42,751 bases of DNA from Thermodesulfovibrionales bacterium (lineage in GTDB: Bacteria > Nitrospirota > Thermodesulfovibrionia > Thermodesulfovibrionales > SM23-35): contig JAGUWT010000230.1 in the NCBI GenBank assembly GCA_020062205.1, positions 1 to 42,751 on the forward strand, given 5' to 3'. The notes beneath the pieces were generated by a model, which saw nothing but the letters and a program-made list of their open reading frames with translations, searched no databases and had not been told where the DNA came from. Numbering within the stretch: the stretch's first letter is position 1; the number at the start of each line of letters is the position of its first letter. Both the position numbers and the translations under genes were made by a program. This document shows, piece after piece, positions 8,877 through 41,883 of the stretch.

Positions 8877-9929
8877 ATGGAAAAAATACAAATCGGTGAC
8901 CGTATAATAACTAAAGGATGTTCTCCCTTCATTATTGCCGAAGCAGGGATCAATCATAACGGGGAACTTGAAAAAGCATTTGCCATGATTAATGCAGCAA
9001 AGGAAGCAGGTGCAGATGCAGTTAAATTTCAGACCTTTAAAGCCGAAGAATTTATTACAGACCCTGATTTACCATATACTTATGTGTCACAGGGAAAAGA
9101 GATTACCGAATCCATGCTAAAAATGTTTAAACGATATGAGTTTAACCGTGAAGAATGGTATTTAATTAAAAAAAGATGCGATGAAGAGGGGATTATGTTT
9201 TTGTCCACTCCTCAAAACCGTTCTGACCTTGATTTGCTATTGAAAATTGGAATTCCGGCCATTAAGGTTGGTTCTGATGATTTTACCAATTTACCATCGT
9301 TGAAAAGTTACTCTCAGACAAAGTTGCCGATGATTGTTTCATGTGGAATGTCTGATTTGGCTGAAGTCTATCGTGCCCTTGAAGCAGTAGGCTCTCTTGA
9401 TGGTTACCCTACTGTATTAATGCTTTGTACCAGCCAATATCCCACCCCACTACAAGACGTAAATCTGCTTAAATTAAGGACGTTAATCGATGCATTCCCT
9501 ATGGTGTTGCTCGGATTTTCCGATCATACACAGGGCAACCTCGCATCTTCGTTAGCCGTTGCTTTTGGCGCAGTAGTATTTGAAAAACATTTCACCTTAA
9601 GCCATAATTTACCAGGGCCTGACCACTGGTTCTCTGAAGACCCGGTTGGGTTAAAACAATGGGTTAATTCAATCAGGGATGCCTTTATTATGATGGGAAG
9701 TGCAGATGTGAGGCCCACGGAAGCCGAACTTAGTGCAAGAACCCTTGCACGCCGCAGCATAGTGGCGATTCGTGATATAAATAAAGGGGATTTATTAACC
9801 GATGCCAATGTCGGTTTGAGAAGGCCTGGTAATGGGCTGCCGCCTGAAATGCTCGACAAAATAATCGGTTTGAAGGCTACCTGTCGGATTTCTAAAGGGA
9901 GTCTATTGCAATTTGGTGATTTTAAATAA
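8877..9929 (+). CDS. NeuB/PseI-family nonulosonic acid synthase with C-terminal SAF domain
   Basis: FIIAEAGINHNGELEKAFAMINAAKEAGADAVKFQTFKAE; GFSDHTQGN; C-term RRSIVAIRDINKGDLLTDANVGLRRPGNGLPPEMLDKIIG. Confidence 0.88.
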   Translation: MEKIQIGDRIITKGCSPFIIAEAGINHNGELEKAFAMINAAKEAGADAVKFQTFKAEEFITDPDLPYTYVSQGKEITESMLKMFKRYEFNREEWYLIKKRCDEEGIMFLSTPQNRSDLDLLLKIGIPAIKVGSDDFTNLPSLKSYSQTKLPMIVSCGMSDLAEVYRALEAVGSLDGYPTVLMLCTSQYPTPLQDVNLLKLRTLIDAFPMVLLGFSDHTQGNLASSLAVAFGAVVFEKHFTLSHNLPGPDHWFSEDPVGLKQWVNSIRDAFIMMGSADVRPTEAELSARTLARRSIVAIRDINKGDLLTDANVGLRRPGNGLPPEMLDKIIGLKATCRISKGSLLQFGDFK

Positions 9930-14891: not shown

Positions 14892-16223
14892 TTGGACCAC
14901 AATGCTGTAATGTCCTTCATGCGGCGGCATTATCTTAAAAATAGAACCATAGTTTCTAAAGATATTACGGGAATCATTGAAGATGTAGCTACATACATTG
15001 GCATTGAACCAGTATTGCACCGCTATCCAACAGGAAACGAGTATTCTACATGGGATATCCCACCTCGATGGGATGTGCGTGAGGCATGGCTTAAAGACGA
15101 AGATGGCAATATTATTGCAAGCTATGAAGATCACCCCCTTTTTCTTGCCCCGTATTCGATACCTTTCCATGGAGTTGTGACGTTTGAAGGTTTAAAGGAT
15201 CATGTCAGCACCCATCCGACGCTTCGAGATGCCTTTTTCTATGAGCATAGGCTTGCCTACAACTCGCGATTAAGACTTAAGGACTGGAGAATAAGTCTGC
15301 CGGCCGATCTTCTCGACCGACTTAATCCAATGGGTAGGTACGAGGTGTGTATTGATGTTGAAGTTGAGCCGGGTGAGATGCTTGTTGCCGAGTTTGTGCT
15401 ACCGGGCAAAAGCGAGGATGTAGTAGCCCTGCTTGCTGACTATTGCCATCCCGGACAAGTCAACGATAGCTTTTCAGGAATCGTGACGTTCATGGATGTC
15501 CTCAAAGAATTAAAGGAAAGACCGTCACGGAACTTCACATACAGTCTGATGCTTTTCCCAGAGACTATCGGGTCATCAGTCATGCTTGCTTCAAATCCTG
15601 AACGTATTCCAAAAATTAAAGGTGCTATTTTTTGTGAGATGGTCGCATGGGGTGCTCAATGGGCAATAAAAAAAACGTTCACCGGCGATACGTACATGGA
15701 TATGCTGGCTGGCGTCCTCTGCCTCGAAATGCCTGAGATCAAAACAATAAGCTTTGACGATGGAGCCGGAAATGATGAAATAGTATTTGACTGGGCTGGA
15801 ATTCCTGCAATATCGCTTCAACGATATCCTTACGAAGAATATCACTCAAGCGAAGACAGCCCCGAAAAGATCGATATGGAAAGCATGAAGCGCGCCATTG
15901 AAATCATTCTTAAAATGATAGATGTTATCGAAAACGACCGTATCTGGTGCTGCGTGCACCCAGTTCCTTTTTATATGTCGCGGTTTGATCTTTATAATGA
16001 TGCTGTTTCTGTCTGGCAAGACCACTTGTTCTTCCGCAACATTCTCTTCAATCTGAACGGGTACAAAAGTATTCTTGAGATAGCGAATAAACTCGGAAGA
16101 CAATTCGATAAAACACTAGGAATAATAAAGGCAATGGAAAAATATGGATTGGTAAGATCAGGTGAATTGGGATTAATAGTCGCGTCAAGAAAGCAGAGAT
16201 ATAGGCGGCTTAAAAAAGCATAA
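14892..16223 (+). CDS. DUF4910-type Zn-aminopeptidase-like protein with C-terminal winged-helix-like tail
   Basis: CHPGQVNDSFSGIVTFMDVLKEL, LFPETIGS, EYHSSEDSPEKIDMESM resemble M28-like metal-binding positions; C-term LEIANKLGRQFDKTLGIIKAMEKYGLVRS. Confidence 0.75.
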   Translation: MDHNAVMSFMRRHYLKNRTIVSKDITGIIEDVATYIGIEPVLHRYPTGNEYSTWDIPPRWDVREAWLKDEDGNIIASYEDHPLFLAPYSIPFHGVVTFEGLKDHVSTHPTLRDAFFYEHRLAYNSRLRLKDWRISLPADLLDRLNPMGRYEVCIDVEVEPGEMLVAEFVLPGKSEDVVALLADYCHPGQVNDSFSGIVTFMDVLKELKERPSRNFTYSLMLFPETIGSSVMLASNPERIPKIKGAIFCEMVAWGAQWAIKKTFTGDTYMDMLAGVLCLEMPEIKTISFDDGAGNDEIVFDWAGIPAISLQRYPYEEYHSSEDSPEKIDMESMKRAIEIILKMIDVIENDRIWCCVHPVPFYMSRFDLYNDAVSVWQDHLFFRNILFNLNGYKSILEIANKLGRQFDKTLGIIKAMEKYGLVRSGELGLIVASRKQRYRRLKKA

Positions 16224-16239
16224 TCAGTTATTTAAGGAG

Positions 16240-17754
16240 TTGAAGATGAAAGTTTTAGGCATATCAGGAAGTTTAAGAAATTTACGCTTTGGAAAAGGAT
16301 CCGATTTATTAGTTTCAGAAATAAAAAAAATTGCTACAAAAGATAACCTTCTTGAGTATTTAAAAGAACAAGGGAACTTATGTTTAAGTTTATTTATAGA
16401 ATCAGGCAGAAAAATGGGAAAACCTTTCAATCAGTTATATGAGAAGTTAAAAAAAACTGGCGGCAATTACGGGTTAAGCAACAGTGAGATTGCCCTTGCT
16501 ACGGGGCTATGGGGTGTAAACCAAAATGGGGTAGACATTGAACATGTAAGCTTGACCGAATTTTTAGAGAGGAATCAAAACAAAACCGTTGGACGCGAAC
16601 AAATTTTACAAAGAGTACAAGAAGCAGATGGCATTTTGGTTTCTGGACCTGTTTATTTTGGTGACCGCAGTTCACTGATTTATGATTTCCTGCGGTTGCT
16701 CAAGTTGGAGCCACAGATTGTAAAAAACAAGGTTTATGCCGGAATTGCTGTTGGAGCTAAGCGGAATGGCGGACAGGAAACAACACTTATTTATCAGATG
16801 ATGGATTTTATTAATATTGGCATGATTGCTGTAGGAAACGATTTGAATACGACAGCCCAGTACGGCGGGACAGGAGTTGCAGGTGATGTCGGTACTATGG
16901 CAAATGATAGCATTGGATTAGAAACTGCTATTGGCACAGGTAATCGTATAGGGGATGTGGTCAATCTAATATCCACTGCTGGAAAATTACATCTAAAGGA
17001 TAAGCCTCGCATAGGTGTATTTATACTACAAGATTGTGAAGAAACCGCCTTGAGAAAAATAAAAAATGTGGTGGAAAAGTATGAGATTTTCAATAAAGCC
17101 GATTTTAAATTTTTTCATTTACCAAAAGAAAAGATAAATAGATGTATAGCCTGCGATAATTGTCCAGCCTTTATTGACGATGACGAAGTTTATAACTGCA
17201 TCAATCAGAGAAAAGATGACCTTTTCAAAAAAATCCATAAGGAAATAATCGGCCTTGATGGAATACTTCTAGGCGGATACTCTACAAATGACTTTACCAA
17301 AATTTATTCTGTATACCAAACGTTTATTGAGAGAACCCGTTACTTAAGAAGAAGTGACTATCAATTTTCAAACCTCTTGGTAGCGCCTTTAGTTGTGGAA
17401 GAAGTTACAAGTCGGGAAAATCTAAGCATACGTATCATAACCTCGATGATACGTCATCATACTATTATGTTTAGGCCTTTAGTTTTGCAGCTAAAAGATG
17501 GTCAGGAGATCACAGAAAATTTATTCGTTGCTGATTTGTGCTCATACATAGAACTTGCTGGTTCAATTACGGCTGGAAGAATATTAAAATATGCAAGTAA
17601 GTTGGTCAAAAAGACGTATAATCCGTATGGTTATACTCTTAGATCAAGCAGGGACATGGAACAGTCCACTATCGAAAAAAAGCAGAAGGTTATGGAAAAT
17701 CGAAAGCACCGGTTTGAAGCGATGTTAGAAAAAAGAGTTGAGGGACACCAATGA
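16240..17754 (+). CDS. Tandem flavodoxin-fold (NADPH-dependent FMN reductase-like) protein; second half with Fe-S flavoprotein-like Cys cluster
   Basis: First half MKVLGISGSLRN...ADGILVSGPVYFGDRSSLIYDFLRL; second half RIGVFILQD...INRCIACDNCPAFIDDDEVYNCINQRKDDLFKKI (CX2CX2CX11C). Confidence 0.72.
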   Translation: MKMKVLGISGSLRNLRFGKGSDLLVSEIKKIATKDNLLEYLKEQGNLCLSLFIESGRKMGKPFNQLYEKLKKTGGNYGLSNSEIALATGLWGVNQNGVDIEHVSLTEFLERNQNKTVGREQILQRVQEADGILVSGPVYFGDRSSLIYDFLRLLKLEPQIVKNKVYAGIAVGAKRNGGQETTLIYQMMDFINIGMIAVGNDLNTTAQYGGTGVAGDVGTMANDSIGLETAIGTGNRIGDVVNLISTAGKLHLKDKPRIGVFILQDCEETALRKIKNVVEKYEIFNKADFKFFHLPKEKINRCIACDNCPAFIDDDEVYNCINQRKDDLFKKIHKEIIGLDGILLGGYSTNDFTKIYSVYQTFIERTRYLRRSDYQFSNLLVAPLVVEEVTSRENLSIRIITSMIRHHTIMFRPLVLQLKDGQEITENLFVADLCSYIELAGSITAGRILKYASKLVKKTYNPYGYTLRSSRDMEQSTIEKKQKVMENRKHRFEAMLEKRVEGHQ

Positions 17755-19292
17755 AGAAGCATTTCCAAAATAACGCATTATATTCCGATCCATTATCGTA
17801 CTCAACTGTTTCTGCTTTTTTAATTAGCCGCTGTAAAACGGGTGGGGATAGTGTCTTTTTAAAAGAAGTTTCAACCAATCAAAGTGTAACTTACGATGAA
17901 TTTTGGAATTTAGTATGCCAAGTTTCAAACTGGTTTGAAATCAATGCTATTGAAACTGGCGATACTATATGTTTAGCCTTAGAAAATGATATCCAGTCGG
18001 TAGCTCTCTTTTTCGCATCTCTATGCAAATCCATCATTCCAGCAGTCGTTAATAAGAATATTTCAAAACAAGAATTAAATTATATAATAGAACTGATCAA
18101 TCCGAAGAAAATTGTTAACTTCTCCATAGACTTAGTAGATAAAAGGTTCGTTTCTTTTGATTTTTCTATGATAAAAATTTTTTACATCAAAAATGTGGAG
18201 CATAGATCTGCAGGAAATGCTAATGATATTGCTTATATTACCTTTACATCCGGATCAACGGGTGTTCCCAGAGGCGTTTGTATATCAAACCGTAACGTCT
18301 TATCGGAAATCAGCAGTTTTATTCAGGCATATTGTTTGGAAAAGTCGGATGTCCATCTATGCGTACTTCCTGTTAGTCACGCGTCAGCTCTATATAGGAA
18401 CCTATTCCTTCCTTTTTCATTAGGTAGCAAGGTTGTAATGACCAGTAAGTTCGACGTCAAAGAATTTTGGCAAATTATCGAAGATAAGGAGGTGACCTTT
18501 GTTCAAGTCGTTCCCTCAATACTTTCTTCACTTCTTGTGTCGGATACCACACCAGGGAAATCCACAAAAGAGCGATTGCGATTTATCGGCAGCGCATCAG
18601 CACCCCACCCAGAAAGTCTTATAAGAAAGTTTGAGGAAAGATTCGGGATATCTATTCTTCAGGGTTACGGAATGACCGAAGCTACCTGTGGAATCACATT
18701 GTCACCGATAGAGAGGGAATTACGGATCTCTGGTAGTGTTGGACGGCCAATTCCAGGAAATAGGGTTGAGATCTGGGACGAGGATGGCAGGTGTCTTCCC
18801 CCTCATGAAATAGGTGAAGTGGTAGTTCAGGGTAAAAACATAATGATGGGTTATGTTGACCAGAATTTAAACTCAAACATAAAGTTAAGAGATGGTCGGC
18901 TGTGCACAGGAGATTTGGGTTATCTTGATGAAAATAACAATTTATTTCTTATTGGGAGAAAGAATGATATCATCAAAAGGGCTGGACATAGGGTCTCACC
19001 TAAGGAGATCGAAAATGCGCTTTACTTTCTGGAGGAAATCAGGGACGCAAAGGTTTTGGGAATACCCCATGACTTTCTGGGTGAAGATATCATAGCGTTC
19101 GTAACGCTTAACGATAGTTATTCCATAAGTGGAAGGAAGATTATCTCAAAGTTGAAAGGTCAAATTTCCTCACACAAACTTCCTTCTGAGATTTGTGTCC
19201 TTACTGATATCCCGAGAAATTCCGTTGGTAAAATTGACAGTCACTTCTTGTTCGATTGGTATGAAAAGTACTGCGCAAAAAAACGATTTTAA
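17751..19292 (+). CDS. AMP-dependent acyl synthetase/ligase
   Basis: YITFTSGSTGVPRGVCISNRNV, QGYGMTEATCGITLSP, RLCTGDLGYLDENNNLFLIGRKNDIIKRAGHRVSPKEIE; ATGA overlap with upstream gene. Confidence 0.92.
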   Translation: MKKHFQNNALYSDPLSYSTVSAFLISRCKTGGDSVFLKEVSTNQSVTYDEFWNLVCQVSNWFEINAIETGDTICLALENDIQSVALFFASLCKSIIPAVVNKNISKQELNYIIELINPKKIVNFSIDLVDKRFVSFDFSMIKIFYIKNVEHRSAGNANDIAYITFTSGSTGVPRGVCISNRNVLSEISSFIQAYCLEKSDVHLCVLPVSHASALYRNLFLPFSLGSKVVMTSKFDVKEFWQIIEDKEVTFVQVVPSILSSLLVSDTTPGKSTKERLRFIGSASAPHPESLIRKFEERFGISILQGYGMTEATCGITLSPIERELRISGSVGRPIPGNRVEIWDEDGRCLPPHEIGEVVVQGKNIMMGYVDQNLNSNIKLRDGRLCTGDLGYLDENNNLFLIGRKNDIIKRAGHRVSPKEIENALYFLEEIRDAKVLGIPHDFLGEDIIAFVTLNDSYSISGRKIISKLKGQISSHKLPSEICVLTDIPRNSVGKIDSHFLFDWYEKYCAKKRF

Positions 19293-19381
19293 GGGAATCC
19301 CAAGGGCTTAAATAAAAAAGTACTCATTGAGAAGATAACATTTATAAGTAGTCAATTAAAATAATCAAGTAGGGGATATAA

Positions 19382-19648
19382 TTGGATAGAGCGGTGATTT
19401 ATGAGAAACTGGAGGAAATTTTTTCGGATATTTTTGACCTTGGGGATATAGGCTTTAAGGAAGACCTCTCTGCCGGTTTTATAAAAGATTGGGACTCTCT
19501 TGGTCATGTCAGATTAATGATAGCGATTGAGAGTGAGTTTGATATACGATTCTCTTTAGAAGAATTTGCCAAATTGGTCACTGTCAAAAAAATACTGGGT
19601 TATCTTGTGGATATCCTGGGAAATAGCTATAAAGACAGTCTTGTATAA
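19382..19648 (+). CDS. Acyl carrier protein
   Basis: IKDWDSLGHVRLMIAIESEFDIRFSLEEFAKLVTVKKI with the DSL phosphopantetheine site; TTG start. Confidence 0.88.
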   Translation: MDRAVIYEKLEEIFSDIFDLGDIGFKEDLSAGFIKDWDSLGHVRLMIAIESEFDIRFSLEEFAKLVTVKKILGYLVDILGNSYKDSLV

Positions 19649-19649
19649 A

Positions 19650-20525
19650 ATGGATGATGAATTCAGGTACTTGCTGAGTTTGTTTGAAAGGTTTTCTATA
19701 AAACCGATAACAAAGAGCGAATTTGTTGAGAAATTAATCGAGGTGGGTGTTGAAAAAAGCGATATTTTGTATATACATAGTCAGTTATTTCTTCTGGGCA
19801 ACGTAGAAGGCGCTAGTAGTCTCGACGAATATTTGAATAAGATTTTAGAATGTTTCTTTGAAGTCATTACTTCTGAGGGCACTATAGTTGTGCCTACATT
19901 TACTACGAGAGTAATAAAGCAGGGAATACCCTTTATTCTCGAGGAAACGGAATCTGATACTGGATTATTTGCCGAATTTATTAGGAAACATCCTGACTCG
20001 GTGAGAAGCCTTCATCCAGTAAACTCGTTTTCTGCTATCGGTAGGAGAAAGTATGAGATATGCAGCGATGTGCCCCAGACCAATTATGGTCTTGATACTC
20101 CTATGGATAGAATGGCTAAGTTGGGAGCGAAGGGTGTACTATTGGGCATGGAACTGACCGGAGATGCTGCTTATACAATCTCGTTGCTTCACCACATTGA
20201 AGCCATGTATAATGTGCCATATGTTTACAACAAAATAATAGATGCGAAAGTTATTGCTGGAGGAAAGTGTATCGATAAAATTTTTATCGGGAATTTCCGT
20301 TATCTGGACTTTGATATTCAAATGGGAACAATGCGGACAAATTTTATTCATAGACATTTAATCGAAGGAGGCCTGATAAGATCGGCCTACTTTGATAAAA
20401 GGGGCATTTATGTTGTGAATTTTAGTGACTATATAAACGAGTGTGTAAGTCTGTTGAAGAAAGATATATATAGTTTACTTGACTATCCTCCCTCATTTGT
20501 CAGGGGTGTTATACCATACAAATAA
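19650..20525 (+). CDS. AAC(3)-fold N-acyltransferase
   Basis: Start moved to ATG 19650 (same frame as ORF 19566); DILYIHSQLFLLGNV, TSEGTIVVPTFTTR, SVRSLHPVNSFSAIGRR. Confidence 0.82.
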   Translation: MDDEFRYLLSLFERFSIKPITKSEFVEKLIEVGVEKSDILYIHSQLFLLGNVEGASSLDEYLNKILECFFEVITSEGTIVVPTFTTRVIKQGIPFILEETESDTGLFAEFIRKHPDSVRSLHPVNSFSAIGRRKYEICSDVPQTNYGLDTPMDRMAKLGAKGVLLGMELTGDAAYTISLLHHIEAMYNVPYVYNKIIDAKVIAGGKCIDKIFIGNFRYLDFDIQMGTMRTNFIHRHLIEGGLIRSAYFDKRGIYVVNFSDYINECVSLLKKDIYSLLDYPPSFVRGVIPYK

Positions 20526-20577: not shown

Positions 20578-22635
20578 ATGGTTCTGGACAGTAATTTTAA
20601 GTATTTTTTATGTAAGGTCGTTAAGCTCAAATGCGTTGTGAGTCTGGTGTTCCGTGAGGTGGTGCTTAGAAGGAACAAGGTCATGCTATGTTATTTAACC
20701 CCAAACAAAATCACATCTGTCTTGGAAAAACTTATCTGGCTGTTGAGTAAATTTCAGAAAAAGCTCTCTCTTAAGTATCTCTACTGTAATGTCTCCGGAA
20801 TGAAAAATGATGCTGGAGTTTCGCTTGTAAAGGTATCATATTTTGACGAGCTGTATGACGTAATAAATAATCTGAACGGTATGATACACAAAGAAGGCGA
20901 TTCGATATTAGATTATTTAAGTAGGAGGATGGAGCCCATTAAGGAGGACTTAAAGCTTTATATTATGCAGCAGGTAGCGTTTGATATCTATGACGATTTA
21001 TTATCAGTTAATGTTGCAAGTTGGTTATCCACAAACAAGGAAAGCGAGTTGTACGGGAAGAACCCAGTTTTAATACTAGAAAATAAAAGTTATTGGAGTT
21101 ATTTAGTTTTTGACCATGCAAAAAGTAAGAATGTGGAGATTATCGTTTTTCGCCAGATGAACATGAAAAGAAATAAGGGAATTCGCTTCGTATATTATTT
21201 AGTAAAATTGATTTCTGAATTTGTGAGACGGCTTTTCACAGGCAAGAAAAAGACTGCTCTCTCTGAAGAGGTGGATATTGGAATTCCATTTTATGCAGTT
21301 CATAATTTTACCAATTTTTTTGACCAAAAAAATTATTATCTATTTTGGTTTTATCAATCAGGAATTGACCCAAAAAACATATTGATTTATGTTCCAGATG
21401 CTGAATTTAAAATCAGCGATGAAGAGGTGCTTAACATAAAAAAGGCTGGATTTAACCTTTTATTCTGTCCGACCAGGATAACTGGGAAAGCTAAAAACAA
21501 CGTTCCTGTTTATGTATGTTCATTCAAAATGGCGCAACTTCTGCTTTTCTATTTAAGGCAGATTGTAAAGATGTATTTTCGTGTTAGAGGCAGGCCTATG
21601 AAGGAGCAGTGGAAGCTCCTTTCCCTATTGTTTATCCAACTTCCATACTGGGAGGACTTTTTCCAGAGCAATAATGTAAAGATTAAGTTCAGGTTTCATG
21701 ACATATTCGGCATACGTGATATTGCTGCGAAGCTGTCAGGCGTAATAACCATGTCTTATCACTATTCGAACCATTCTGCATCGACTATTATGCATCAGGA
21801 AGTTTGTGATATTTTTTATATTTGGGGGAGAAGATATAAAAGATTTTTACTGCCGAAATATTCGACCACAAAAAATATAATTCAAACCGGATACGTCTTC
21901 GATTATTCCTTCGGTCACTTAAAGCAAAAGGCATTAGAAGTAAAAAAGGCTTTTGCTGGGCGGAATATTCAGTATGTTATAGGGGTACTGGACGAACATT
22001 TAAAAGGAAATCCCGGGAATGCGATATTGGACTGTTATGAGGCTGTATTCAGATACGCTATGTCGCACAGCGAAATCGGTATTATTATAAAGCCCAAGAA
22101 AGTAACTCTTCGTGAGGATATGTTATCAAAACCGGAAGTTCTTGATCTGCTTGAACTGCTTGAAAAGGAAGGCAGGTTGATTATACTGGATTATAGAAAA
22201 TATCCTATTGAGGCCGGGTATGCCTCTGATATCGTTATAGGGTTGGTTGCAAACTCAACTGCAGCATTGGAGTGCGCGATTGCAGGTATCCCGACAATTG
22301 TTTATGATTGCGCTGGCTCTAGAGATTGGTGTCCATATTATGAATGGGGATATAATAAGGTAGTTTTTGATGATATTAAACAACTAATTGACTCGTTAAA
22401 TACAAACAGAGAAATATTGGATAATGTGTCTGGTTTTGCAGACTGGTCGTTCATTCTTAATGAAGTAGACCCCTTCCGTGACGGCAAGGCAAACCAGAGG
22501 ATTGCAGGCTATATCAAGACACTTCTCCTTGCGTCAAGTAATGGCTTAAGTAAAGATGAGGTCATTGAGGCTGCAAACCGGGCTTATGCAGAAGAATACG
22601 GCTGGGATAAGGTGACATCTTTGCACAGAAAATAA
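20578..22635 (+). CDS. Large surface-carbohydrate biosynthesis / GT-B-like protein
   Basis: C-term IVIGLVANSTAALECAIAGIPTIVYDCAGSRDW and IGIIIKPKKV resemble GT-B sugar-nucleotide-binding segments; N-term unrecognised. Confidence 0.6.
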   Translation: MVLDSNFKYFLCKVVKLKCVVSLVFREVVLRRNKVMLCYLTPNKITSVLEKLIWLLSKFQKKLSLKYLYCNVSGMKNDAGVSLVKVSYFDELYDVINNLNGMIHKEGDSILDYLSRRMEPIKEDLKLYIMQQVAFDIYDDLLSVNVASWLSTNKESELYGKNPVLILENKSYWSYLVFDHAKSKNVEIIVFRQMNMKRNKGIRFVYYLVKLISEFVRRLFTGKKKTALSEEVDIGIPFYAVHNFTNFFDQKNYYLFWFYQSGIDPKNILIYVPDAEFKISDEEVLNIKKAGFNLLFCPTRITGKAKNNVPVYVCSFKMAQLLLFYLRQIVKMYFRVRGRPMKEQWKLLSLLFIQLPYWEDFFQSNNVKIKFRFHDIFGIRDIAAKLSGVITMSYHYSNHSASTIMHQEVCDIFYIWGRRYKRFLLPKYSTTKNIIQTGYVFDYSFGHLKQKALEVKKAFAGRNIQYVIGVLDEHLKGNPGNAILDCYEAVFRYAMSHSEIGIIIKPKKVTLREDMLSKPEVLDLLELLEKEGRLIILDYRKYPIEAGYASDIVIGLVANSTAALECAIAGIPTIVYDCAGSRDWCPYYEWGYNKVVFDDIKQLIDSLNTNREILDNVSGFADWSFILNEVDPFRDGKANQRIAGYIKTLLLASSNGLSKDEVIEAANRAYAEEYGWDKVTSLHRK

Positions 22636-24163: not shown

Positions 24164-25216
24164 ATGATTAAAATCGGCTTAAATGGATTTGGAAGGATCG
24201 GCAGGGCTATTACAAGGATAGTATTAAAAAGTGTGGATTGCCAACTAAATGTGATTAATGAGCTGGATCCAGACATTGGCAATGCTACATATTTATTAAA
24301 TTATGATTCTATATACGGTCGTTTTTCAGAAAAGATATCAGCTGATGAGCAGAGAAATGCCCTTATTTGTAACGGCGGGGTTATTCCAGTATATTCGTTT
24401 GCCAACACCGAGCATGTTCCGTGGGAAAGACATGATATTGATGTCCTGATTGACGCTACGGGGGTGAAGGCGAATGTCCTGGCAGCCCATCGCTTGATAG
24501 AGAGAGGAATCCCAAAGATCGTTATAACTCATTCCCCTGACGAGGTTGATACAACGATTATTTTAGGTGTTAATGAAAATGAGTATGACCCCAAAAAGCA
24601 TCACGTAATAAGTAGCAGTATCTGCGATGCAAGTGCGATCGCTCCAGTATTGTTTGAGATAAACAAGCTGTGGGAGATAGAGAATTGCTTTGTGACAACA
24701 CTGCATCCTTGGTTATCTTATCAAAATTTATTGGATGGTTCGGTCAGTTCTGTTTCCAGTCCGGGTCATTATTGGAAAGACTATTCTCTTGGACGAAGCA
24801 GCATCATGAACCTTATTCCAAAAGACACGACAGCTGCAAAAGCAACCCTTAAAGTCCTTACAGAATTGAAGGGGAAGATAGATGCAATTTCCTTCAGGGT
24901 TCCGACAAGTATTGTTTCAGCCTCAGACATGACAATCTTAGTAAAAAACAAGACGTCTACCGAAGAGGTAAATTCACATTTTAAGAGATTGTCAGAGGAG
25001 AAGGAGGATATCTTTGAACTGATCGAGGAATGTCTGGTTTCTATAGACCACCAGGGTACCAATAAGTCAGCTATTATAGATGCAGTGCGCACTAAGGTTT
25101 TGAACGAAAGGATGATAAAGATGGTAGTCTGGTATGACAACGAGTGGGGATATAGCAATAAAGTTGTCGATATTGCAAGATTGATAACTAAAAAATCAGG
25201 AGATAATCATGGGTAA
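24164..25216 (+). CDS. Divergent glyceraldehyde-3-phosphate dehydrogenase-like protein
   Basis: IKIGLNGFGRIGRAITR, YLLNYDSIYGRF, SSSICDASAIAP (Cys kept), TTLHPWLSYQNLLDG (His kept), FRVPTSIVSASDM, WYDNEWGYSNKVVDIA. Confidence 0.88.
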   Translation: MIKIGLNGFGRIGRAITRIVLKSVDCQLNVINELDPDIGNATYLLNYDSIYGRFSEKISADEQRNALICNGGVIPVYSFANTEHVPWERHDIDVLIDATGVKANVLAAHRLIERGIPKIVITHSPDEVDTTIILGVNENEYDPKKHHVISSSICDASAIAPVLFEINKLWEIENCFVTTLHPWLSYQNLLDGSVSSVSSPGHYWKDYSLGRSSIMNLIPKDTTAAKATLKVLTELKGKIDAISFRVPTSIVSASDMTILVKNKTSTEEVNSHFKRLSEEKEDIFELIEECLVSIDHQGTNKSAIIDAVRTKVLNERMIKMVVWYDNEWGYSNKVVDIARLITKKSGDNHG

Positions 25217-26162
25217 AAGGATTTTAGTAACGGGCGGGGCCGGTTTTGTAGGGAGCTGCCTGTGTAGAGAACTAAAAGAAGACAGTTATCACGTTACTGC
25301 AGTCGATGATTTATCCAACGGGAAACGTGAAAATATTCCTGAAGGGGTTGATTTCATAAGACTGGATATTTCGTCAGGGGAAGGCTTAAAAAGACTTGAC
25401 GCACATTCATTTGATAGCGTTATTCACTGCGCTGCCCAGTCGTCCAATGCCCTTTCTTTTAAAGACCCGAAGCAGGATATGTTGACCAACCAGTTAGGCA
25501 CACTTAATGTGCTGAATTATTGCATGGGGAAAAAAATCAACCGGTTCATTTTTACGAGTTCAATGAGCGTTTATGGACAGCCCGAGCATCTTCCAACTAA
25601 GGAAACGGATACACCATATCCTGATTCCTTTTATGCCATTCACAAATTAGGCTCTGAGCATTATATCCGAATATTTGCAAGGCAATATGGAATACAGTAC
25701 ACAATTTTCAGGCTATTTACTACCTATGGATTCGGGCAGAATCTTGAAAATGTCGATCAGGGCCTTCTCAGCATTTACTTAAGTCATATTCTTAATGAGA
25801 GGACATTGGTCGTAAAGGGCTCAAAAGATAGGACAAGAGATATAATCCATGTCAGTGATGTTGTTAACGCTATTAAATTTTCGCTAGACAATCCGAAATC
25901 TTACAACAGGGTCTATAATTTAGGAACAGGGCAGAGTATGAAGATAGAGAAGATTGTAGAGATGTTGACGACAGGCCTAGGCTACAGGAGAGGGGAATAT
26001 CCTGTAAGATATGAGAGTGGCACAGAGGGGGATCCGTTTGATACCCTGGCGGATATCGAGGAAGCCAAGAGGGATTTAGGATGGAAACCAAGGATTTCTG
26101 CCGAAGAGGGGATAAGGCTTACTTTGGAAAACTATAAGGCCCTGCTGAATAGGCATGAATGA
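25209..26162 (+). CDS. NAD-dependent epimerase/dehydratase (GalE-like SDR)
   Basis: RILVTGGAGFVGSCLCRELKE, FTSSMSVYGQPEHLPTKETD, YAIHKLGSEHYIR. Confidence 0.88.
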   Translation: MGKRILVTGGAGFVGSCLCRELKEDSYHVTAVDDLSNGKRENIPEGVDFIRLDISSGEGLKRLDAHSFDSVIHCAAQSSNALSFKDPKQDMLTNQLGTLNVLNYCMGKKINRFIFTSSMSVYGQPEHLPTKETDTPYPDSFYAIHKLGSEHYIRIFARQYGIQYTIFRLFTTYGFGQNLENVDQGLLSIYLSHILNERTLVVKGSKDRTRDIIHVSDVVNAIKFSLDNPKSYNRVYNLGTGQSMKIEKIVEMLTTGLGYRRGEYPVRYESGTEGDPFDTLADIEEAKRDLGWKPRISAEEGIRLTLENYKALLNRHE

Positions 26163-27162
26163 GCTTGAGATAAGACCCCAAAAACTTTTTAATGAATACC
26201 TTGAAATATCAAGGAAAGACGTTGAGCGTTTCTTTTCAAAAAAAGAGCTGTTTGTGGAGGTATCGTGCCCTGCCTGTAAAAGCAACAGGACTCAATTTGC
26301 ATTTGAAAAATATACCTTTTCTTACCGTATATGTGAAGAGTGCCTTACCCTTTTTGTCTCTCCACGTCCTACAGAGGAGATGATAGAGGACTTTTACAGG
26401 GAGTCTGCGTCAAGCAGGTTTTGGGCTGAGCGATTTTTCCCGGAAACTGCGGAGGCAAGGAGACTAAAGATATTCCGCCCACGTGCTATTTTGGTAAGCG
26501 AACTGGTTTCACGTTTCAGAGTACCTGAGCCCATCTCTCTTGTTGATGTCGGTGCCGGCTTTGGCATCTTTCTGGAAGAGATTAAAAGAACAGGATATTT
26601 TTCTGAAGTCCTGGCAATAGAACCCAGCATAGATCTTGCCAAATGCTGCAGGAGTAAAGGTTTCAGGGTTATTGAGAAATCCGTTGAAAATATTGAAGAT
26701 AACGAATTGCAGGTATCTGTGGCATGTTCTTTTGAGGTACTGGAACATTTATTTGACCCTGAAAGATTCATTAAAAGCATGAAGAGACTGTTGAAAACCG
26801 GAGGACTGATCATCTTTACGACCCTTACCATCAGCGGGCTTGACCTACTGGTACTATGGGAACACTCAAAAAGCATTTCACCACCACATCATATTAATTT
26901 CCTATCAGTGGAAGGGTTAAGGAGACTGATAGACCGCTGCGGTCTTGAAGAGGTGGAGATCTCAACACCTGGTCAGCTTGATGTTGATATTCTTTGCAAC
27001 ACAATGCGGGAAATGCCTGACCTGAAAGTTCCGAGATTTATAGATTATATAGTGAAGAACCGTGGCCCTGAAACATTCAATCAGTTACAGGCATTTTTAC
27101 AGGCCAACAACTTAAGCTCACATGCACGTGTTATCGCCCGAAAAGTAATACTTGAGTTGTAA
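26155..27162 (+). CDS. Class I SAM-dependent methyltransferase with N-terminal Cys-rich (Zn-ribbon-like) segment
   Basis: VSCPACKSNRTQFAFEKYTFSYRICEECLTLFVSPRPTEEMIEDFY; LVDVGAGFGIFLEEIKR, SFEVLEHLFDPERFIKSMKRLLKTGGL. Confidence 0.85.
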   Translation: MNELEIRPQKLFNEYLEISRKDVERFFSKKELFVEVSCPACKSNRTQFAFEKYTFSYRICEECLTLFVSPRPTEEMIEDFYRESASSRFWAERFFPETAEARRLKIFRPRAILVSELVSRFRVPEPISLVDVGAGFGIFLEEIKRTGYFSEVLAIEPSIDLAKCCRSKGFRVIEKSVENIEDNELQVSVACSFEVLEHLFDPERFIKSMKRLLKTGGLIIFTTLTISGLDLLVLWEHSKSISPPHHINFLSVEGLRRLIDRCGLEEVEISTPGQLDVDILCNTMREMPDLKVPRFIDYIVKNRGPETFNQLQAFLQANNLSSHARVIARKVILEL

Positions 27163-27908
27163 TGCGTAGCTTATTATGGGATTTTGATGGTGTTATTATT
27201 GACAGTATAGACGAATGCCTGCTTACTTCATATAATGCCTACCTGCAGTACCAGGGGATATATAATGAATTTATCGAGACATTAGAGGACATCCCGAAAT
27301 ATTACCGTGAAGAATTTTACAGGACGAGAAAGTATGTCAGGCCAGCAGGAGAATATTTTATTTTGCATAAGGCGATATCATCTAATATTAAAATCGACAG
27401 TTATTTGCGGTTCAAAGAATTATTAATAAGCAACGCCGGAGCAGTGGCTGATTTTCAGGAATTGTTTTTTTTAACTCGCAATGAATTTAAAAGCAAGTAT
27501 CCGCGATACTGGTTTGAGCTTCATCATAGTTACCCAGGAATAAAAACAAAATGGCAGGAACTTAAAAGATATTTTGATTTTTATATCGTCTCTAATAAGG
27601 ATTTAAAATCAATTTCTGAGATTTTGGATTTTTTCGATCTGCCGATCAACCGAGACAACATTTTCGGCGCAGAGTTCAGCACAGACAAGAAAGTGATAAT
27701 CAGACATATTCTGTCAACTAATAATATTAGCGCTGAGAAACTATTTTTTATAGATGACAACTACCAACATCTTTTAGATTTAAACGGAATGGGGATCAAA
27801 CTATTCTTTGCTTGTTGGGGATATGGAGAAATCCAGGATAATACCAATGAAGATATAATCCTTCTGGATTTAGATACTTTTAATATTAAAGTTATAGAGG
27901 AATTATGA
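27162..27908 (+). CDS. HAD superfamily hydrolase
   Basis: LLWDFDGVIIDSIDECL (DxD), FYIVSNKD, LFFIDDNYQHLLD. Confidence 0.8.
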   Translation: MRSLLWDFDGVIIDSIDECLLTSYNAYLQYQGIYNEFIETLEDIPKYYREEFYRTRKYVRPAGEYFILHKAISSNIKIDSYLRFKELLISNAGAVADFQELFFLTRNEFKSKYPRYWFELHHSYPGIKTKWQELKRYFDFYIVSNKDLKSISEILDFFDLPINRDNIFGAEFSTDKKVIIRHILSTNNISAEKLFFIDDNYQHLLDLNGMGIKLFFACWGYGEIQDNTNEDIILLDLDTFNIKVIEEL

Positions 27909-28687
27909 TGGAAAAGTTTGCGAAAGTTAATTACCATGGGAAGATAAAATGGTGCAAAGTTATAGAAGATAATTATTATGAATTAGCAGATAGTATTTAT
28001 AAGGAAAATCCAAGAGTAAAAAGGCAACCTCTTGATCAAACAGGTATTCGTTTTCTACCACCATGTGACGGTCAAAAAGTCATTGGTCTCGCTTATAATT
28101 ACAAGGGATTGGTTGGTAAAAAAGAAAACTATGATGAGCCATTATTCTTTTTCAAATCGCCGACTGGATTGATAGGTCACAGAGAATCCATCATTTACCC
28201 TGGTTTCGCCCAAAAAGTATGGCAGGAGGTTGAGTTAGCTATTATCGTAAAGGCTAAATGCAAAAATGTTCCTGTAGAAGAGGCACATAGATATATTTTG
28301 GGCTATACCTGCGGTAATGACATTACTTGTGAGAATATCCTTAATAGGGATTGGCATTTAGCCAGATCAAAAGGATTAGACACTTTTTGCCCTTTAGGTA
28401 CATTCTTAGTTAAAGATATCAACACAGAAAATTTACGGCTGACATCGTACATTAATGGAAGGGTAACACAAGACAGTTATACATCAGATAGGATAATAAA
28501 TGACGTTGAAACTGTATCATTAATATCAAGGTATGTCACTTTATTCCCCGGGGATGTGATACTAACCGGAACACCTGCCGGTGCGGTCAATGCTGTTATA
28601 TCACCGGGTGACATAATAAAGGTAGAAATTGAAAGTATAGGAATTTTAGAAAATAGTGTAGTACCAGATAAGGAGGGCTTAAAATGA
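27905..28687 (+). CDS. Fumarylacetoacetate hydrolase (FAH) family protein
   Basis: KVIGLAYNYKG, EPLFFFKSPTGLIGHRESIIYP, WQEVELAIIVKAKCKNV, GYTCGNDITCEN, GDVILTGTPAGAVNAVISPGD. Confidence 0.9.
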   Translation: MMEKFAKVNYHGKIKWCKVIEDNYYELADSIYKENPRVKRQPLDQTGIRFLPPCDGQKVIGLAYNYKGLVGKKENYDEPLFFFKSPTGLIGHRESIIYPGFAQKVWQEVELAIIVKAKCKNVPVEEAHRYILGYTCGNDITCENILNRDWHLARSKGLDTFCPLGTFLVKDINTENLRLTSYINGRVTQDSYTSDRIINDVETVSLISRYVTLFPGDVILTGTPAGAVNAVISPGDIIKVEIESIGILENSVVPDKEGLK

Positions 28688-29424
28688 TTCCAGCATTAGT
28701 AATTGGAAGGGGTGGCAGCACCGGATTTCCCGGAAAAAATACTACCAGTATAGTTGGTCGGCCGTTAATGTCTTATCCGATATTGGCAGCCAAACACTCC
28801 AAGATGGTAGATAGGGTATATATCTCCACTGATACAGAAGATATTGCATCTATAGGGAAAAATTATGGTGCGGAGCTGATTAAACGTCCTGATTATCTGG
28901 CCACTAAAGAGGCCCTGTCCCAGGATGCTTTTAAACATGGGTTTGATACGATTGTCGAACTCATTAAGCCGGAGGAATTGGAAATGATAGTTTTACTTTT
29001 TGCCAACGGCGCAACGATTACACCCGGAATTATAGATAAGGGGATTGAAGTCTTACGAACAAACCCGAACCTGGATTCAGCTGTCACTGTAAGCTGTTAC
29101 AACATGTGGAGCCCCTTGAGGGCGCATAAAATTGTGGACGGGTTATTAAAGCCTTTTTTAGATGCCTCCTTTTTTGAATCCGCAAGTTGCGACAGGGATT
29201 CACAGGGAGATGTGTACTTCCCCGATTGTTCGGCATTTGTCGTGAAACCAAAATGTTTTGACTATGATTACGGCAGACCGCCTTTTCCATGGATAGGGAG
29301 AGTAGTATATCCTCTTAAACAATGGGGAGGTCTTGATATCGACTTCAAATGGCAGTTTCCAATAGTGGAATTCTGGCTCCGTGAGCATGGATTCACAGAA
29401 ACCAAAACTCCGTACGACAAGTAG
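28684..29424 (+). CDS. Acylneuraminate cytidylyltransferase (NeuA)-family protein
   Basis: IPALVIGRGGSTGFPGKNTTSIVGRPLMSYPILAAKHSKMVDRVYISTDTEDIASIGKNYGAELIKRPDYLA. Confidence 0.85.
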   Translation: MIPALVIGRGGSTGFPGKNTTSIVGRPLMSYPILAAKHSKMVDRVYISTDTEDIASIGKNYGAELIKRPDYLATKEALSQDAFKHGFDTIVELIKPEELEMIVLLFANGATITPGIIDKGIEVLRTNPNLDSAVTVSCYNMWSPLRAHKIVDGLLKPFLDASFFESASCDRDSQGDVYFPDCSAFVVKPKCFDYDYGRPPFPWIGRVVYPLKQWGGLDIDFKWQFPIVEFWLREHGFTETKTPYDK

Positions 29425-29426
29425 CG

Positions 29427-30422
29427 ATGGCAACAATAAAAGTCTTTATTACAGATTATATAACATCTCCTGATATTGAGCGCGCGGTTTTGGGAGAAGG
29501 AGTCTCAATCGAGTGCCTTAATACAGAAGATGAGGCTGAGTTTCCTGATTCCATCGAAGAAGAGGCAGATGCCCTGCTTGTGTGGCATGCACGCATAACG
29601 GAGAAGACCATCAGACGACTTAAAAAATGCAGGGTTATTGTCCGTTACGGCGTTGGATATGATAACGTGGATTTCAGATGTGCGCAGAGATACGGTATCC
29701 CTTTCTGCAATACACCTGATTACGGTATCCATGAAGTTGCGGATACCACCTGCGGCATGATACTTGCGTTTATCAGGAAAATTTTTTCTTATCACCATTC
29801 AGCGCAAAGATTTTCTTCGGGTTGGCAGGAACATACGCAACCGCCGATAAAACGTTCCACACAGCATAATTTAGGTATTATCGGGATTGGCCGTATTGGC
29901 TCTGCAGTGGCTTTAAGGATGAAGGCATTTGGAATAAGCATAGGTTTTTATGATCCGTATGTGCCGAGTGGATATGAAAAGACCCTCGGGGTGCAACGTT
30001 TTGAATCCCGAGAAGAACTGCTTAAATTCTCAAGCATAGTCTCCCTGCATGTGCCCCTTAATGAAGAGACACGCTGGATGGTTGATGAGAGGTTTATACA
30101 GAATTTAAATGATAATACAACCCTTATTAATACAGCTCGTGGAAAGATAGTAAAGGATCTAGATGTCCTGTATGATGGACTGGTTTCAAGCAAACTTGCG
30201 GCTGTGGGTTTGGATGTTTTGCCTGAGGAGCCTCCGTTGCCTTCAGAACGCTTGATACAGGCATGGAAAGATGTAAATTCCGATTTTCATCAGAGAATTA
30301 TTATTAACCCTCACACTTCATATTTTTCCGATCAGGCATGGCGTGAGATGAGAGAAAAGGCCGCAGAAAACGTTAAGAGAATCCTGGAGGGAAAGAGCCC
30401 CAGGAATCTAATTACTTCTTAA
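29427..30422 (+). CDS. D-isomer-specific 2-hydroxyacid dehydrogenase (CtBP-like)
   Basis: VIVRYGVGYDNVDFRCAQRYGIPFCNTPDYGIHEVADTTCGMIL; LGIIGIGRIGSAVALRMKAFG; NTARGKIVKDLDVLYDGL; GLDVLPEEPP. Confidence 0.92.
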   Translation: MATIKVFITDYITSPDIERAVLGEGVSIECLNTEDEAEFPDSIEEEADALLVWHARITEKTIRRLKKCRVIVRYGVGYDNVDFRCAQRYGIPFCNTPDYGIHEVADTTCGMILAFIRKIFSYHHSAQRFSSGWQEHTQPPIKRSTQHNLGIIGIGRIGSAVALRMKAFGISIGFYDPYVPSGYEKTLGVQRFESREELLKFSSIVSLHVPLNEETRWMVDERFIQNLNDNTTLINTARGKIVKDLDVLYDGLVSSKLAAVGLDVLPEEPPLPSERLIQAWKDVNSDFHQRIIINPHTSYFSDQAWREMREKAAENVKRILEGKSPRNLITS

Positions 30423-30438
30423 AGACAGCATAACAAAA

Positions 30439-32433
30439 ATGATAGCTAAAAATCTTCTGATCGTAGATAATTGTGAGGGGAAAGTTTTTGACCAATATGT
30501 GGGGGACAACTTAAATGAGTCCGAATGGGAAATATTGACTTTGGGCGCTACAGAAACATTGTATTTTGGCAGAAATAAGGCCAAGTTACAACAGCAGTTA
30601 GCTAACTATTCGTTTATTGACCTGACAGAATATTATCTAAAGGCACAAGAATTAACCAAGGAATATTGTCTTCGTTTAAAATTTGAGTTTCCCAAAAAAA
30701 AGATATGGAAAGGAAAAACTTTATTTGATCTTTTAAGTTTTAAAGAGTTTAATCTTTGGTGGTTTACTACGTTTTCAGAAATGGGGACTTTCAGGATTAA
30801 ATTCATTGATCAAATATATTTTCTGTCTTTAATTCAACTTGTTATTTCCAGCAGAGAAAAGTATGACAATATATGTCTGGATATCAAAGACTGTCCACTT
30901 AACTCGATATTAACTGATTATTTTCGAAAAGAGAATATGAATGTCTTTACAACAAGACATTACTCTAATATCAGAAATACACTAACCCGTAGGTTCCCAT
31001 TATTGTGGTGGATAATTTCGGTTACAAGTTTCTTATCACTTCAATTGGTGAAAACTGCTATTTTGAAATTATTCAATATAGGTTTTAATCCTGATAGTAA
31101 AAATTTTTATCTTTTTTTCAGTTTCTATCCATTACTCTGGAAAAATAAAGAAGAAAAAAATATCAGGAATGCAATTTATAACGACTTACCGGAGCAATTA
31201 TCTGAAGTAGCTCCGTCATATCATGCAGTATTTATCACAAACATTGGGGAACTCTGGAAGCAAAGAAAATCTATCCATGATGTTTTTCAGAATGGAAAAA
31301 TTATACCTGTAGAGAGATTTATTACCTTAAAGAACTATTGGTTTTTGTTAAGTATTAAGTTAGTAAAATTAATATTTAATTACAGCTTTTTTGTTTCAAA
31401 AAAAATAAAAGAATTCTATAACGGGTATGATATAACTAAACTTGTTGTCGGGACCTTCAATTCATCTCTGGGAGATCATGAACTATTCAGGGATGTTTTG
31501 ATCTATTTTGCTCTTACCAATATATTCAGAAAGTATGATGTTAGAGGCATTATTCATGCCTCTGAGTTTCAATGTTATGAAAAAGCTATCTGGTATGCAG
31601 CAAAAAATAAATGTAAAGTTTTCGCTCTACAGCACTCTGCCATAGGGAAAAACTGGTTAAATTATTATTTCTGCCCAGATGAAATACCTTTGTATTTAGG
31701 AGATAAAAGGCCTTCATGGAATATGCCGTTACCTGATTTATACCTTACCTCTGGTGTTTATCCATATGAAGTTATAGTGCAAAACAAAATCCCTGAAAAT
31801 ATGCTCAGGTTGTGTGGCGCCGTCAGATACGATAAATTGGCTTCTTATATTCAGCACAAACCCTCAAAGATTGAGTTAAGAAAAAAATATAATATTCAAA
31901 ACAAAATGAAAGTACTTTTGGTATTTAGTGGCGTCAACAGAGAGGAATCTATAAATATGATTAGTAATATTAGCTTCGCTTTGCAGGAGATAGACGCTGG
32001 CATTTTAGTTCTGTTCAAGTCACACCCGCTTAGAATAATAGATGAAGAGTTTAAAAAGATTATGAGAACAAACAATGTAAGGGTCCCTTTTGATACTATT
32101 CCAGTTAATGCAAATTATTTTGAATATATAACTTTAGCTGATGTTACATGTTTTTGTAATTCAACAATCGGTATAGAATCAATTGCCTTAGGAACCCATG
32201 CTGTTAGTTTTGATAATATTCATAGTATGGTTAGTTTCGACATGATCGAAGTAGGTGATGCAGTATTCCATGTGAAGAACCCATGTGAATTGAGACAGGC
32301 ATTGGATAAGATCCTAAGAGGAGATGAAATATTAAAAATGGTTGAGAATCTTTGGTCAGATGCCATTTATAAAACGTTTTATTCTTTAGACGGAAAATCT
32401 CATAAAAGGTTTATCGAATGTTTAAAGAATTGA
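30439..32433 (+). CDS. Second large surface-carbohydrate biosynthesis / GT-B-like protein
   Basis: C-term DAGILVLFKSHPLRIIDEEFKKIM...ITLADVTCFCNSTIGIESIALGTHAVSFDN; central CKVFALQHSAIG. Confidence 0.6.
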   Translation: MIAKNLLIVDNCEGKVFDQYVGDNLNESEWEILTLGATETLYFGRNKAKLQQQLANYSFIDLTEYYLKAQELTKEYCLRLKFEFPKKKIWKGKTLFDLLSFKEFNLWWFTTFSEMGTFRIKFIDQIYFLSLIQLVISSREKYDNICLDIKDCPLNSILTDYFRKENMNVFTTRHYSNIRNTLTRRFPLLWWIISVTSFLSLQLVKTAILKLFNIGFNPDSKNFYLFFSFYPLLWKNKEEKNIRNAIYNDLPEQLSEVAPSYHAVFITNIGELWKQRKSIHDVFQNGKIIPVERFITLKNYWFLLSIKLVKLIFNYSFFVSKKIKEFYNGYDITKLVVGTFNSSLGDHELFRDVLIYFALTNIFRKYDVRGIIHASEFQCYEKAIWYAAKNKCKVFALQHSAIGKNWLNYYFCPDEIPLYLGDKRPSWNMPLPDLYLTSGVYPYEVIVQNKIPENMLRLCGAVRYDKLASYIQHKPSKIELRKKYNIQNKMKVLLVFSGVNREESINMISNISFALQEIDAGILVLFKSHPLRIIDEEFKKIMRTNNVRVPFDTIPVNANYFEYITLADVTCFCNSTIGIESIALGTHAVSFDNIHSMVSFDMIEVGDAVFHVKNPCELRQALDKILRGDEILKMVENLWSDAIYKTFYSLDGKSHKRFIECLKN

Positions 32434-37922: not shown

Positions 37923-38516
37923 ATGCTCAAGCGGTTGTTTGATTTTATGGTATCGCTCATTTTGCTTATTATATTGTCTCCGCTTATTGTCACGGTGACG
38001 ATAATGGTACGACTTATAATGGGCAGTCCTGTACTTTTCAGACAACAGAGACCTGGTTTGCATGCTAAGCCCTTTTTTTTGTATAAGTTTCGCACAATGA
38101 CTAATCGCCGTGATGTCGGGGGGCGGCTGTTGCCGGATGAGATGCGCCTGACGAAGTTCGGGAGTTTTCTCAGGAGATACAGTCTGGACGAGCTGCCCCA
38201 GCTCATCAACGTGCTCAGGGGCGATCTAAGCCTGGTAGGGCCGAGGCCGCTACTGATGGAGTATCTTCCGCTTTACAGCCCCGAGCAGGCCCGCCGTCAC
38301 GAAGTAAAACCCGGCATTACCGGATGGGCCCAGGTCAATGGTCGCAACGCCATTAGCTGGGAAGAAAAGTTTAGGTATGACATCTGGTATGTGGATAACT
38401 GCTCATTTTTGCTGGATTTAAAAATGCTCCTGATAACAGTAATCAATATTCTTAGAAGTGAAGGAATTAGCCAGGAAGGGCAGATTACTGCCGAAAAATT
38501 CAAAGGGAACAGATAA
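37923..38516 (+). CDS. PglC-like monotopic phosphoglycosyl transferase (sugar transferase)
   Basis: MLKRLFDFMVSLILLIILSPL; FLYKFRTMTN; YSLDELPQLINVLRGDLSLVGPRPLLMEYLPLYSPEQARRHEVKPGITGWAQVNGRN. Confidence 0.93.
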   Translation: MLKRLFDFMVSLILLIILSPLIVTVTIMVRLIMGSPVLFRQQRPGLHAKPFFLYKFRTMTNRRDVGGRLLPDEMRLTKFGSFLRRYSLDELPQLINVLRGDLSLVGPRPLLMEYLPLYSPEQARRHEVKPGITGWAQVNGRNAISWEEKFRYDIWYVDNCSFLLDLKMLLITVINILRSEGISQEGQITAEKFKGNR

Positions 38517-40342: not shown

Positions 40343-40732
40343 ATGGATGTCCTTGGTTTTGTCTTTGCTACTTTTGTAGTAAAATTGTCAGTTAATATCG
40401 GCATATTTCTTTGCCTTGTTATGTTTCTCTGCACATTTTATGCAGATGCAATAGTCACTATCTTTTACAGATGGAGAAGGGGAGAAAATCTAATAAAGGC
40501 ACACAGGAGTCACCTATATCAATATATGAGTAATGATCTGGGAATGCCCCATTGGATAGTATCGCTGTTGTATGCTTTAAGCCAGTTCGTCTTTGGCTTT
40601 CTGGCGTTATTAGCATACAGGAAAGGATTAGTATGGCAATTTATGGTCTTTTTAGGATTCGGAATCATGTTTCTGTTCACCTATAAGGTTGTTAAAAATA
40701 TAAAACCGAAATATCTGCTGGATAAAAAATGA
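40343..40732 (+). pseudogene. C-terminal fragment of a WecA/WbpL-type UDP-HexNAc:undecaprenyl-phosphate transferase
   Basis: FYADAIVTIFYRWRRGENLIKAHRSHLYQYMSNDLGMPHW resembles the C-terminal part of WbpL/WecA; only 129 aa, in-frame stop just upstream, N-terminal catalytic part missing. Confidence 0.7.
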
Positions 40733-41052
40733 AGCGTTTATTTGATATAGTATTTTCACTGATTGGGCTGTTATTACTTCTGCCTTTATTTGCAGTGGTG
40801 CCATTCTTTATAAAGGTAGGAAGTAGAGGTCCTGTATTTTTTGCCCAGAAAAGGATTGGGAGGAATTTAAAGCCATTTAACCTTTACAAATTCATGACAA
40901 TGGTCCACGATGCAACTAAGAAGGGGCTTTCTATTACTACCGGTGCTGACTCACGAGTTACAAGGATTGGCAGGTTTTTACGAAAGACAAAGGTAGACGA
41001 GCTCCCACAGCTCTGGAATGTCCTTAAAGTGAAATTTATCTCAAATGCATAA
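40729..41052 (+). pseudogene. Truncated PglC-like sugar transferase
   Basis: MKRLFDIVFSLIGLLLLLPLF...VFFAQKRIGRNLKPFNLYKFMTMVHDA...RFLRKTKVDELPQLWNVLK then breaks off before the GDMSLVGPRP segment. Confidence 0.8.
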
Positions 41053-41625: not shown

Positions 41626-41883
41626 ATGCCCCGGATATTGAACCTAAGGGATGATCTTGAAGAGTACATAAGAAAACAGGGACTTACAGAAAAATGGCAA
41701 CAAGTTAAACACCTATTTGAAAATGATCCATCACATCCTTCCTTGCATACTGAACTTCTTGAACCTAAACAACGTCTGATTTATTCTTTTAGAATTGATA
41801 AAAAGTATAGAGCCATATTTATCGTAAAAGGGAAAGACCTGATTGAAATAATCTCTATCACTAAGCATTATCGTAAACAATAA
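41626..41883 (+). CDS. RelE/ParE-superfamily toxin-like protein
   Basis: KWQQVKHLFENDPSHPSLHTELLEPKQRLIYSFRIDKKYRAIFIVKGKDLIEIISITKHYRK: RelE-like C-terminal pattern. Confidence 0.72.
   Translation: MPRILNLRDDLEEYIRKQGLTEKWQQVKHLFENDPSHPSLHTELLEPKQRLIYSFRIDKKYRAIFIVKGKDLIEIISITKHYRKQ

Follow-up and report, generated by a model that had tools for sequence, protein, structure and literature searches.

Why should a surface-polysaccharide gene cluster encode a second cytidylyltransferase next to a GAPDH-like enzyme, an FAH-family enzyme and a D-2-hydroxyacid dehydrogenase? The question is raised by contig JAGUWT010000230.1 of a Thermodesulfovibrionales bacterium (assembly GCA_020062205.1), whose 42,751 nucleotides are hereafter called the window. 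Seven genes at positions 24164-30422, built around this cytidylyltransferase, were proposed in a preliminary description to form one coordinated cassette for an unusual keto or hydroxy acid. We found the core of this set conserved in other genomes, and we give an even chance to the reading that its products make a 2-keto (ulosonic) sugar acid, activate it with cytidine monophosphate (CMP) and pass it to the glycosyltransferase (GT) encoded at 30439 for a surface glycan, without NeuB or KdsA. To our knowledge, every characterised CMP-sugar pathway begins with a phosphoenolpyruvate (PEP)-dependent synthase of KdsA or NeuB type. If true, the reading would imply acidic surface sugars of a new class and new chemistry for making them.

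A gene set conserved around the cytidylyltransferase

The seven open reading frames lie on the + strand with spacings of -8, -8, -1, -4, -4 and +2 bases, and a Pfam search bore out every family first named for them. The 2-hydroxyacid dehydrogenase is followed after 16 bases by a GT gene, and the functional unit probably comprises eight genes, one more than first described:

24164..25216, + strand, GAPDH-like dehydrogenase paralogue, core (PF00044/PF02800, Gp_dh_N/C)
25209..26162, + strand, extended SDR / NAD-dependent epimerase-dehydratase, accessory (PF01370, Epimerase)
26155..27162, + strand, S-adenosylmethionine-dependent methyltransferase, accessory (PF13489, Methyltransf_23)
27162..27908, + strand, HAD phosphatase-like protein, core, position varies (PF13419, HAD_2)
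27905..28687, + strand, FAH-family enzyme, core slot (PF01557, FAA_hydrolase)
28684..29424, + strand, NeuA/PseF/KdsB-superfamily cytidylyltransferase, core (PF02348, CTP_transf_3, E 1e-14)
29427..30422, + strand, D-2-hydroxyacid dehydrogenase (2HADH), core (PF02826/PF00389, 2-Hacid_dh(_C))
30439..32433, + strand, surface-carbohydrate transferase of GT-B fold (weak TIGR04326 / BFO_1060 match)

We scanned 85,488 species genomes for the cytidylyltransferase and kept the best 80 relatives. The loci of the 12 closest (57-72% identity) all carry a GAPDH-like gene together with genes for a 2HADH and an FAH-type enzyme, and 10 of them also a HAD gene, the exceptions being two from Pelagibacteraceae. 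The 12 named genomes with the cassette belong to Omnitrophota, KSB1, Oligoflexia, Myxococcales, Deltaproteobacteria, Gammaproteobacteria, Pelagibacteraceae and Prochlorococcus. The genes thus stay together in the closest relatives rather than being scattered, and their order varies among lineages: GAPDH-FAH-cytidylyltransferase-2HADH-HAD-GT in Omnitrophota, GAPDH-HAD-FAH-cytidylyltransferase-2HADH in KSB1, GAPDH-HAD-cytidylyltransferase-FAH-2HADH in Oligoflexia, Deltaproteobacteria and Myxococcales, and GAPDH-HAD-SDR-FAH-cytidylyltransferase-2HADH-GT in Gammaproteobacteria. In the two Pelagibacteraceae, GAPDH and 2HADH form a pair encoded on the other strand, adjoining SDR-FAH-cytidylyltransferase.

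Seven-gene membership held for the GAPDH, HAD, FAH, cytidylyltransferase and 2HADH genes, and not for the remaining two. An adjacent SDR homologue (48-49% identity) was present only in L043 and L045, two Oligoflexia relatives, and the methyltransferase had a homologue in no other cassette, a 40% homologue being found in L034 near a cytidylyltransferase-2HADH fusion. Both are accessory members, while HAD and surface-carbohydrate GT genes recur.

A contrast set comprised 68 other cytidylyltransferase loci lacking the cassette GAPDH. At a threshold of E 1e-10, 0/68 had a match to FAH, HpcH/HpaI or cassette GAPDH, and 2HADH was present in 28 of the 35 contrast loci of at least 18 kb. In L034 (9254-11014) a variant cytidylyltransferase domain without the usual RxGS motif is fused to a 2HADH domain confirmed by Pfam. 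On these grounds 2HADH and cytidylyltransferase look like a wider core, to which GAPDH and FAH/HpaI add a specific upstream module. The cluster of the fusion protein is apparently also present in L057, L065, L066 and L068; in all of these but L065, an ordinary copy is located nearby. A variant cytidylyltransferase domain is likewise joined to 2HADH in L022 (7564-9501).

Among 399 genomes of the same phylum, cytidylyltransferase orthologues (48-56% identity) had neither GAPDH nor FAH in the loci read and were dropped as cassette evidence. Same-phylum relatives L024-L033 share another recurrent neighbourhood of the enzyme, with SPASM radical SAM, B12 radical SAM, 2HADH, SDR, putative cyclase and HAD genes but neither GAPDH nor FAH. 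Matches to the cytidylyltransferase were weak in a plasmid collection and came down to one partial match in a phage collection; plasmid GAPDHs among the matches listed shared 35-37% identity, and almost all bore the annotation of an ordinary gap gene. No description of the gene set turned up in the open-access literature searched, although so limited a search is no proof of novelty.

An altered GAPDH and a search by its motif

What does the GAPDH-like enzyme contribute? The host genome (1.84 Mb, 74% complete) separately encodes an ordinary GAPDH that is 36% identical to the cassette copy. The latter, at 276 bits, falls below the 367-bit cut-off of TIGR01534 (GAPDH-I) and does not reach the Epd equivalog cut-off either. 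The catalytic Cys149 and His176 are kept (residues 148-181 in B. stearothermophilus numbering; C154 and H181, invariant in A2), as are Arg231 and Thr208. In cassette GAPDHs, Ile148, Asp150, Leu179 and Tyr181 replace Ala, Thr, Thr and Asp or the usual equivalents. Of these, Asp150, Leu179 and Tyr181 depart from the Thr, Thr and Asp found at the substrate and inorganic-phosphate sites of glycolytic GAPDH. The window protein carries the motifs SSSICDA and HPWLSYQNLLDG, with an insertion of about 10 residues after the second; cassette GAPDHs share SICD and H[PS][WI]LSYQN. The changes at 150, 179 and 181, together with the insertion, suggest that the enzyme uses another substrate and that its reaction is possibly non-phosphorylating. 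Such a new substrate of a GAPDH paralogue is open to experimental test.

A DNA pattern for the second shared motif, H[PS][WI]LSYQN, served as a search blind to the cytidylyltransferase. It matched exactly once in each of the 12 cassette genomes, in 1/399 same-phylum genomes (the source of the window), 1/292 Omnitrophota, 2/197 Pelagibacteraceae-family and 3/201 Prochlorococcus-family genomes, and in one viral contig. Its presence in only one of the 399 same-phylum genomes points to a cassette that was probably acquired horizontally.

Three new loci were recovered by motif, two cyanobacterial (L132 and L133) and one on a virus-classed contig (L136), and all include a cytidylyltransferase and a 2HADH, as does every cassette locus. 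Their orders are HAD-GAPDH-cytidylyltransferase-HpcH/HpaI-2HADH-GT in L132, GAPDH-cytidylyltransferase-2HADH, the smallest set, in L133, and GAPDH-HAD-cytidylyltransferase-HpcH/HpaI-2HADH in L136 (6852-10695). HAD-type proteins are present in most cassettes, none being seen in L044, L048 and L133. An HpcH/HpaI aldolase takes the place of FAH in L132 and L136; thus the two families exchange in one slot. Two of the three cytidylyltransferases are of other subtypes, and the association therefore follows function rather than one lineage. Since the set recurs in the 12 named genomes and these three loci, its association is far beyond chance. The virus-classed contig, IMGVR_UViG_3300037586_005524, is 83 kb long.

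In a cytidylyltransferase tree, cassette members clustered (2 label changes versus 13 when shuffled), and a single cassette clade was not rejected (p-AU 0.825), the virus row forming a long branch. The GAPDH tree showed broadly matching groups with some differences.

A candidate pathway and its alternatives

Which acid would be activated? By profile and predicted fold, the cytidylyltransferase falls among CMP-ulosonic-acid synthetases. R9, G11, S12, K18, N19, D218 and D220 (RxGS...KN, DxD) are invariant in 13 cassette members. The AlphaFold2 model (pLDDT 87.8) best matches the V. cholerae CMP-NeuAc synthetase (E 4.6e-17), and among its PDB matches the CMP-NeuAc, CMP-Pse, CMP-Kdn and CMP-Kdo synthetases rank above GlmU and IspD. 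Profile matches in PDB were all to synthetases of CMP-NeuAc/Pse/Kdo type, and curated cut-offs were not passed (79 of 205.7 bits for PseF, KdsB models far below). The nearest solved relatives of the window FAH protein are HpcE-type decarboxylases and, more weakly, 2,4-diketo-3-deoxyrhamnonate hydrolase; across cassettes, enzymes of this slot resemble both of these hydrolase types, 2-keto-3-deoxyarabinonate dehydratase and hydroxyketoacid or 2-keto-3-deoxy sugar aldolases. No NeuB (PF03102) or DAHP/KdsA-family (PF00793) gene lies inside any cassette. The idea of a pathway around a 2-keto or 2-hydroxy acid accords with these assignments.

In the proposed pathway, the GAPDH-like enzyme would act at the aldehyde or carboxyl end of a precursor, and the FAH enzyme, or HpcH/HpaI in some relatives, would carry out metal-enolate chemistry with a 2-keto(-3-deoxy) acid as substrate. 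2HADH would set the 2-keto group and hand its product to the cytidylyltransferase, HAD would remove phosphate and the cytidylyltransferase would form the CMP-sugar, a PEP-dependent NeuB/KdsA synthase playing no part. The GT-B protein at 30439 is the likely user, and probably transfers the activated sugar to a surface glycan; proteins of TIGR04326 / BFO_1060 families follow several other cassettes. A wider formulation, in which a NeuB/KdsA-free CMP-ulosonic acid pathway built from the GAPDH paralogue, 2HADH and an interchangeable FAH or HpcH/HpaI has spread horizontally among phyla and onto a virus-classed contig, seems possible at somewhat less than even confidence. Carriers of the cassette include abundant marine lineages (Pelagibacteraceae and Prochlorococcus), where surface glycans are plausible phage contact points.

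Several points weigh against the ulosonic acid pathway. FAH enzymes are chiefly familiar as cleavers of C-C bonds, and if FAH/HpaI sufficed to build a 3-deoxyulosonic acid, there would be no need for 2HADH. Neither FAH nor HpcH/HpaI was present in the 14 kb read of L133. The lack of any NeuB match in four cassette genomes speaks for the pathway, but these genomes are drafts. The model of the GT at 30439 gave a generic GT-B match that does not reveal the donor, so that donor identity from fold was dropped.

We regard as unlikely a sequential oxidation resembling vitamin B6 synthesis, a special case of the ulosonic acid pathway minus its C-C chemistry. Here the GAPDH-like enzyme would convert an aldose phosphate to the aldonate by oxidation. 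Oxidation at C2 by 2HADH would then yield a non-deoxy 2-ulosonic acid, HAD would remove the phosphate, activation would fall to the cytidylyltransferase and FAH/HpaI would only edit. Epd and PdxB are a precedent for pairing GAPDH-family and 2HADH-family enzymes, the smallest set in L133 is just GAPDH-cytidylyltransferase-2HADH, and the fusion suggests product transfer from 2HADH to cytidylyltransferase. However, the proteins lie far under the equivalog cut-offs (205 of 530 bits for Epd, 76 of 434 for PdxB), and the near-constant FAH/HpaI slot is left unexplained.

Activation of a phosphorylated hydroxy acid to a CDP-glycerate-like donor, from which the GT transfers a phospho-acid, is rather improbable. 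This is the nearest relative of the glyceric-acid-like substituent first suggested, which gained no specific support: the literature led solely to CpgD, a different family. GAPDH and 2HADH would act as in the phosphoglycerate/serine pathway, and 2HADH does match phosphoglycerate dehydrogenase (PGDH) models; CDP-glycerate itself exists, made by CpgD in Caulobacter (PMC12275187). Yet CpgD belongs to COG1213, whereas the window enzyme resembles CMP-ulosonic-acid synthetases; the GAPDH phosphate-site residues are altered, and FAH/HpcH-HpaI is left without a role.

That the cassette modifies and re-activates an ordinary nonulosonic acid made by the NeuB encoded at 8877 is highly improbable. This NeuB gene, the only one found in the window, does have counterparts close to the cassette in L042-L045. 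The window NeuB, however, belongs to a second nucleotide-sugar set (about 0.1-11.4 kb, with PseG and aminotransferases) whose own cytidylyltransferase at 5757 is in the same gene run, leaving the cassette enzyme, as first noted, without a NeuB of its own and unlikely to serve that at 8877; the four draft genomes in which no NeuB was seen tell against it too. Finally, a catabolic 2-keto-3-deoxy-acid module in surface-sugar islands by chance is scarcely credible: FAH, HpcH/HpaI and 2HADH enzymes occur widely in catabolic pathways, but every locus has a cytidylyltransferase and a surface-carbohydrate GT follows many.

Surroundings and relation to known systems

The window is a surface-polysaccharide cluster, with a flippase, a Wzy_C protein, GTs and a sugar transferase downstream of the nucleotide-sugar set. 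A phosphonate reading was dropped, as no PEP-mutase domain was present among the window genes scanned, relatives not being scanned for it. At 14892-20525, a DUF4910/M28-type protein, an FMN reductase-domain protein, an AMP-binding ligase and an Antibiotic_NAT acyltransferase adjoin one another, and some homologues are again together in L028 and L031. The reading frame at 20578-22635 (685 residues) has no Pfam or NCBIfam match. Two Bac_transf sugar transferases are encoded at 37923-38516 and 40729-41052, the second as an N-terminal part only, followed by a weak HigB-like match at 41626.

Compared with the CMP-Kdo and CMP-nonulosonic-acid pathways (KdsA-KdsC-KdsB; NeuB-NeuA; Pse, Leg), the cassette shares a HAD phosphatase, a NeuA/KdsB-superfamily CMP transferase, a surface-polysaccharide setting and a GT downstream, but has GAPDH-like, 2HADH and FAH or HpcH/HpaI proteins instead of a PEP-dependent synthase. 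Epd-PdxB of vitamin B6 synthesis offers the same pairing of families, whereas the cassette proteins are of other subfamilies and stand beside a CMP transferase. CpgD, the CTP:phosphoglycerate cytidylyltransferase that makes CDP-glycerate in Caulobacter (PMC12275187), likewise activates a small acid with CTP for a surface molecule, yet it uses a phosphate ester and the cassette enzyme is not of COG1213. Lastly, homologues of FAH-type sugar-acid enzymes (2-keto-3-deoxy-D-arabinonate dehydratase and 2,4-diketo-3-deoxyrhamnonate hydrolase) and of HpcH/HpaI aldolases fill the FAH slot; the known ones are catabolic, whereas those of the cassette are encoded in a surface-sugar cluster.

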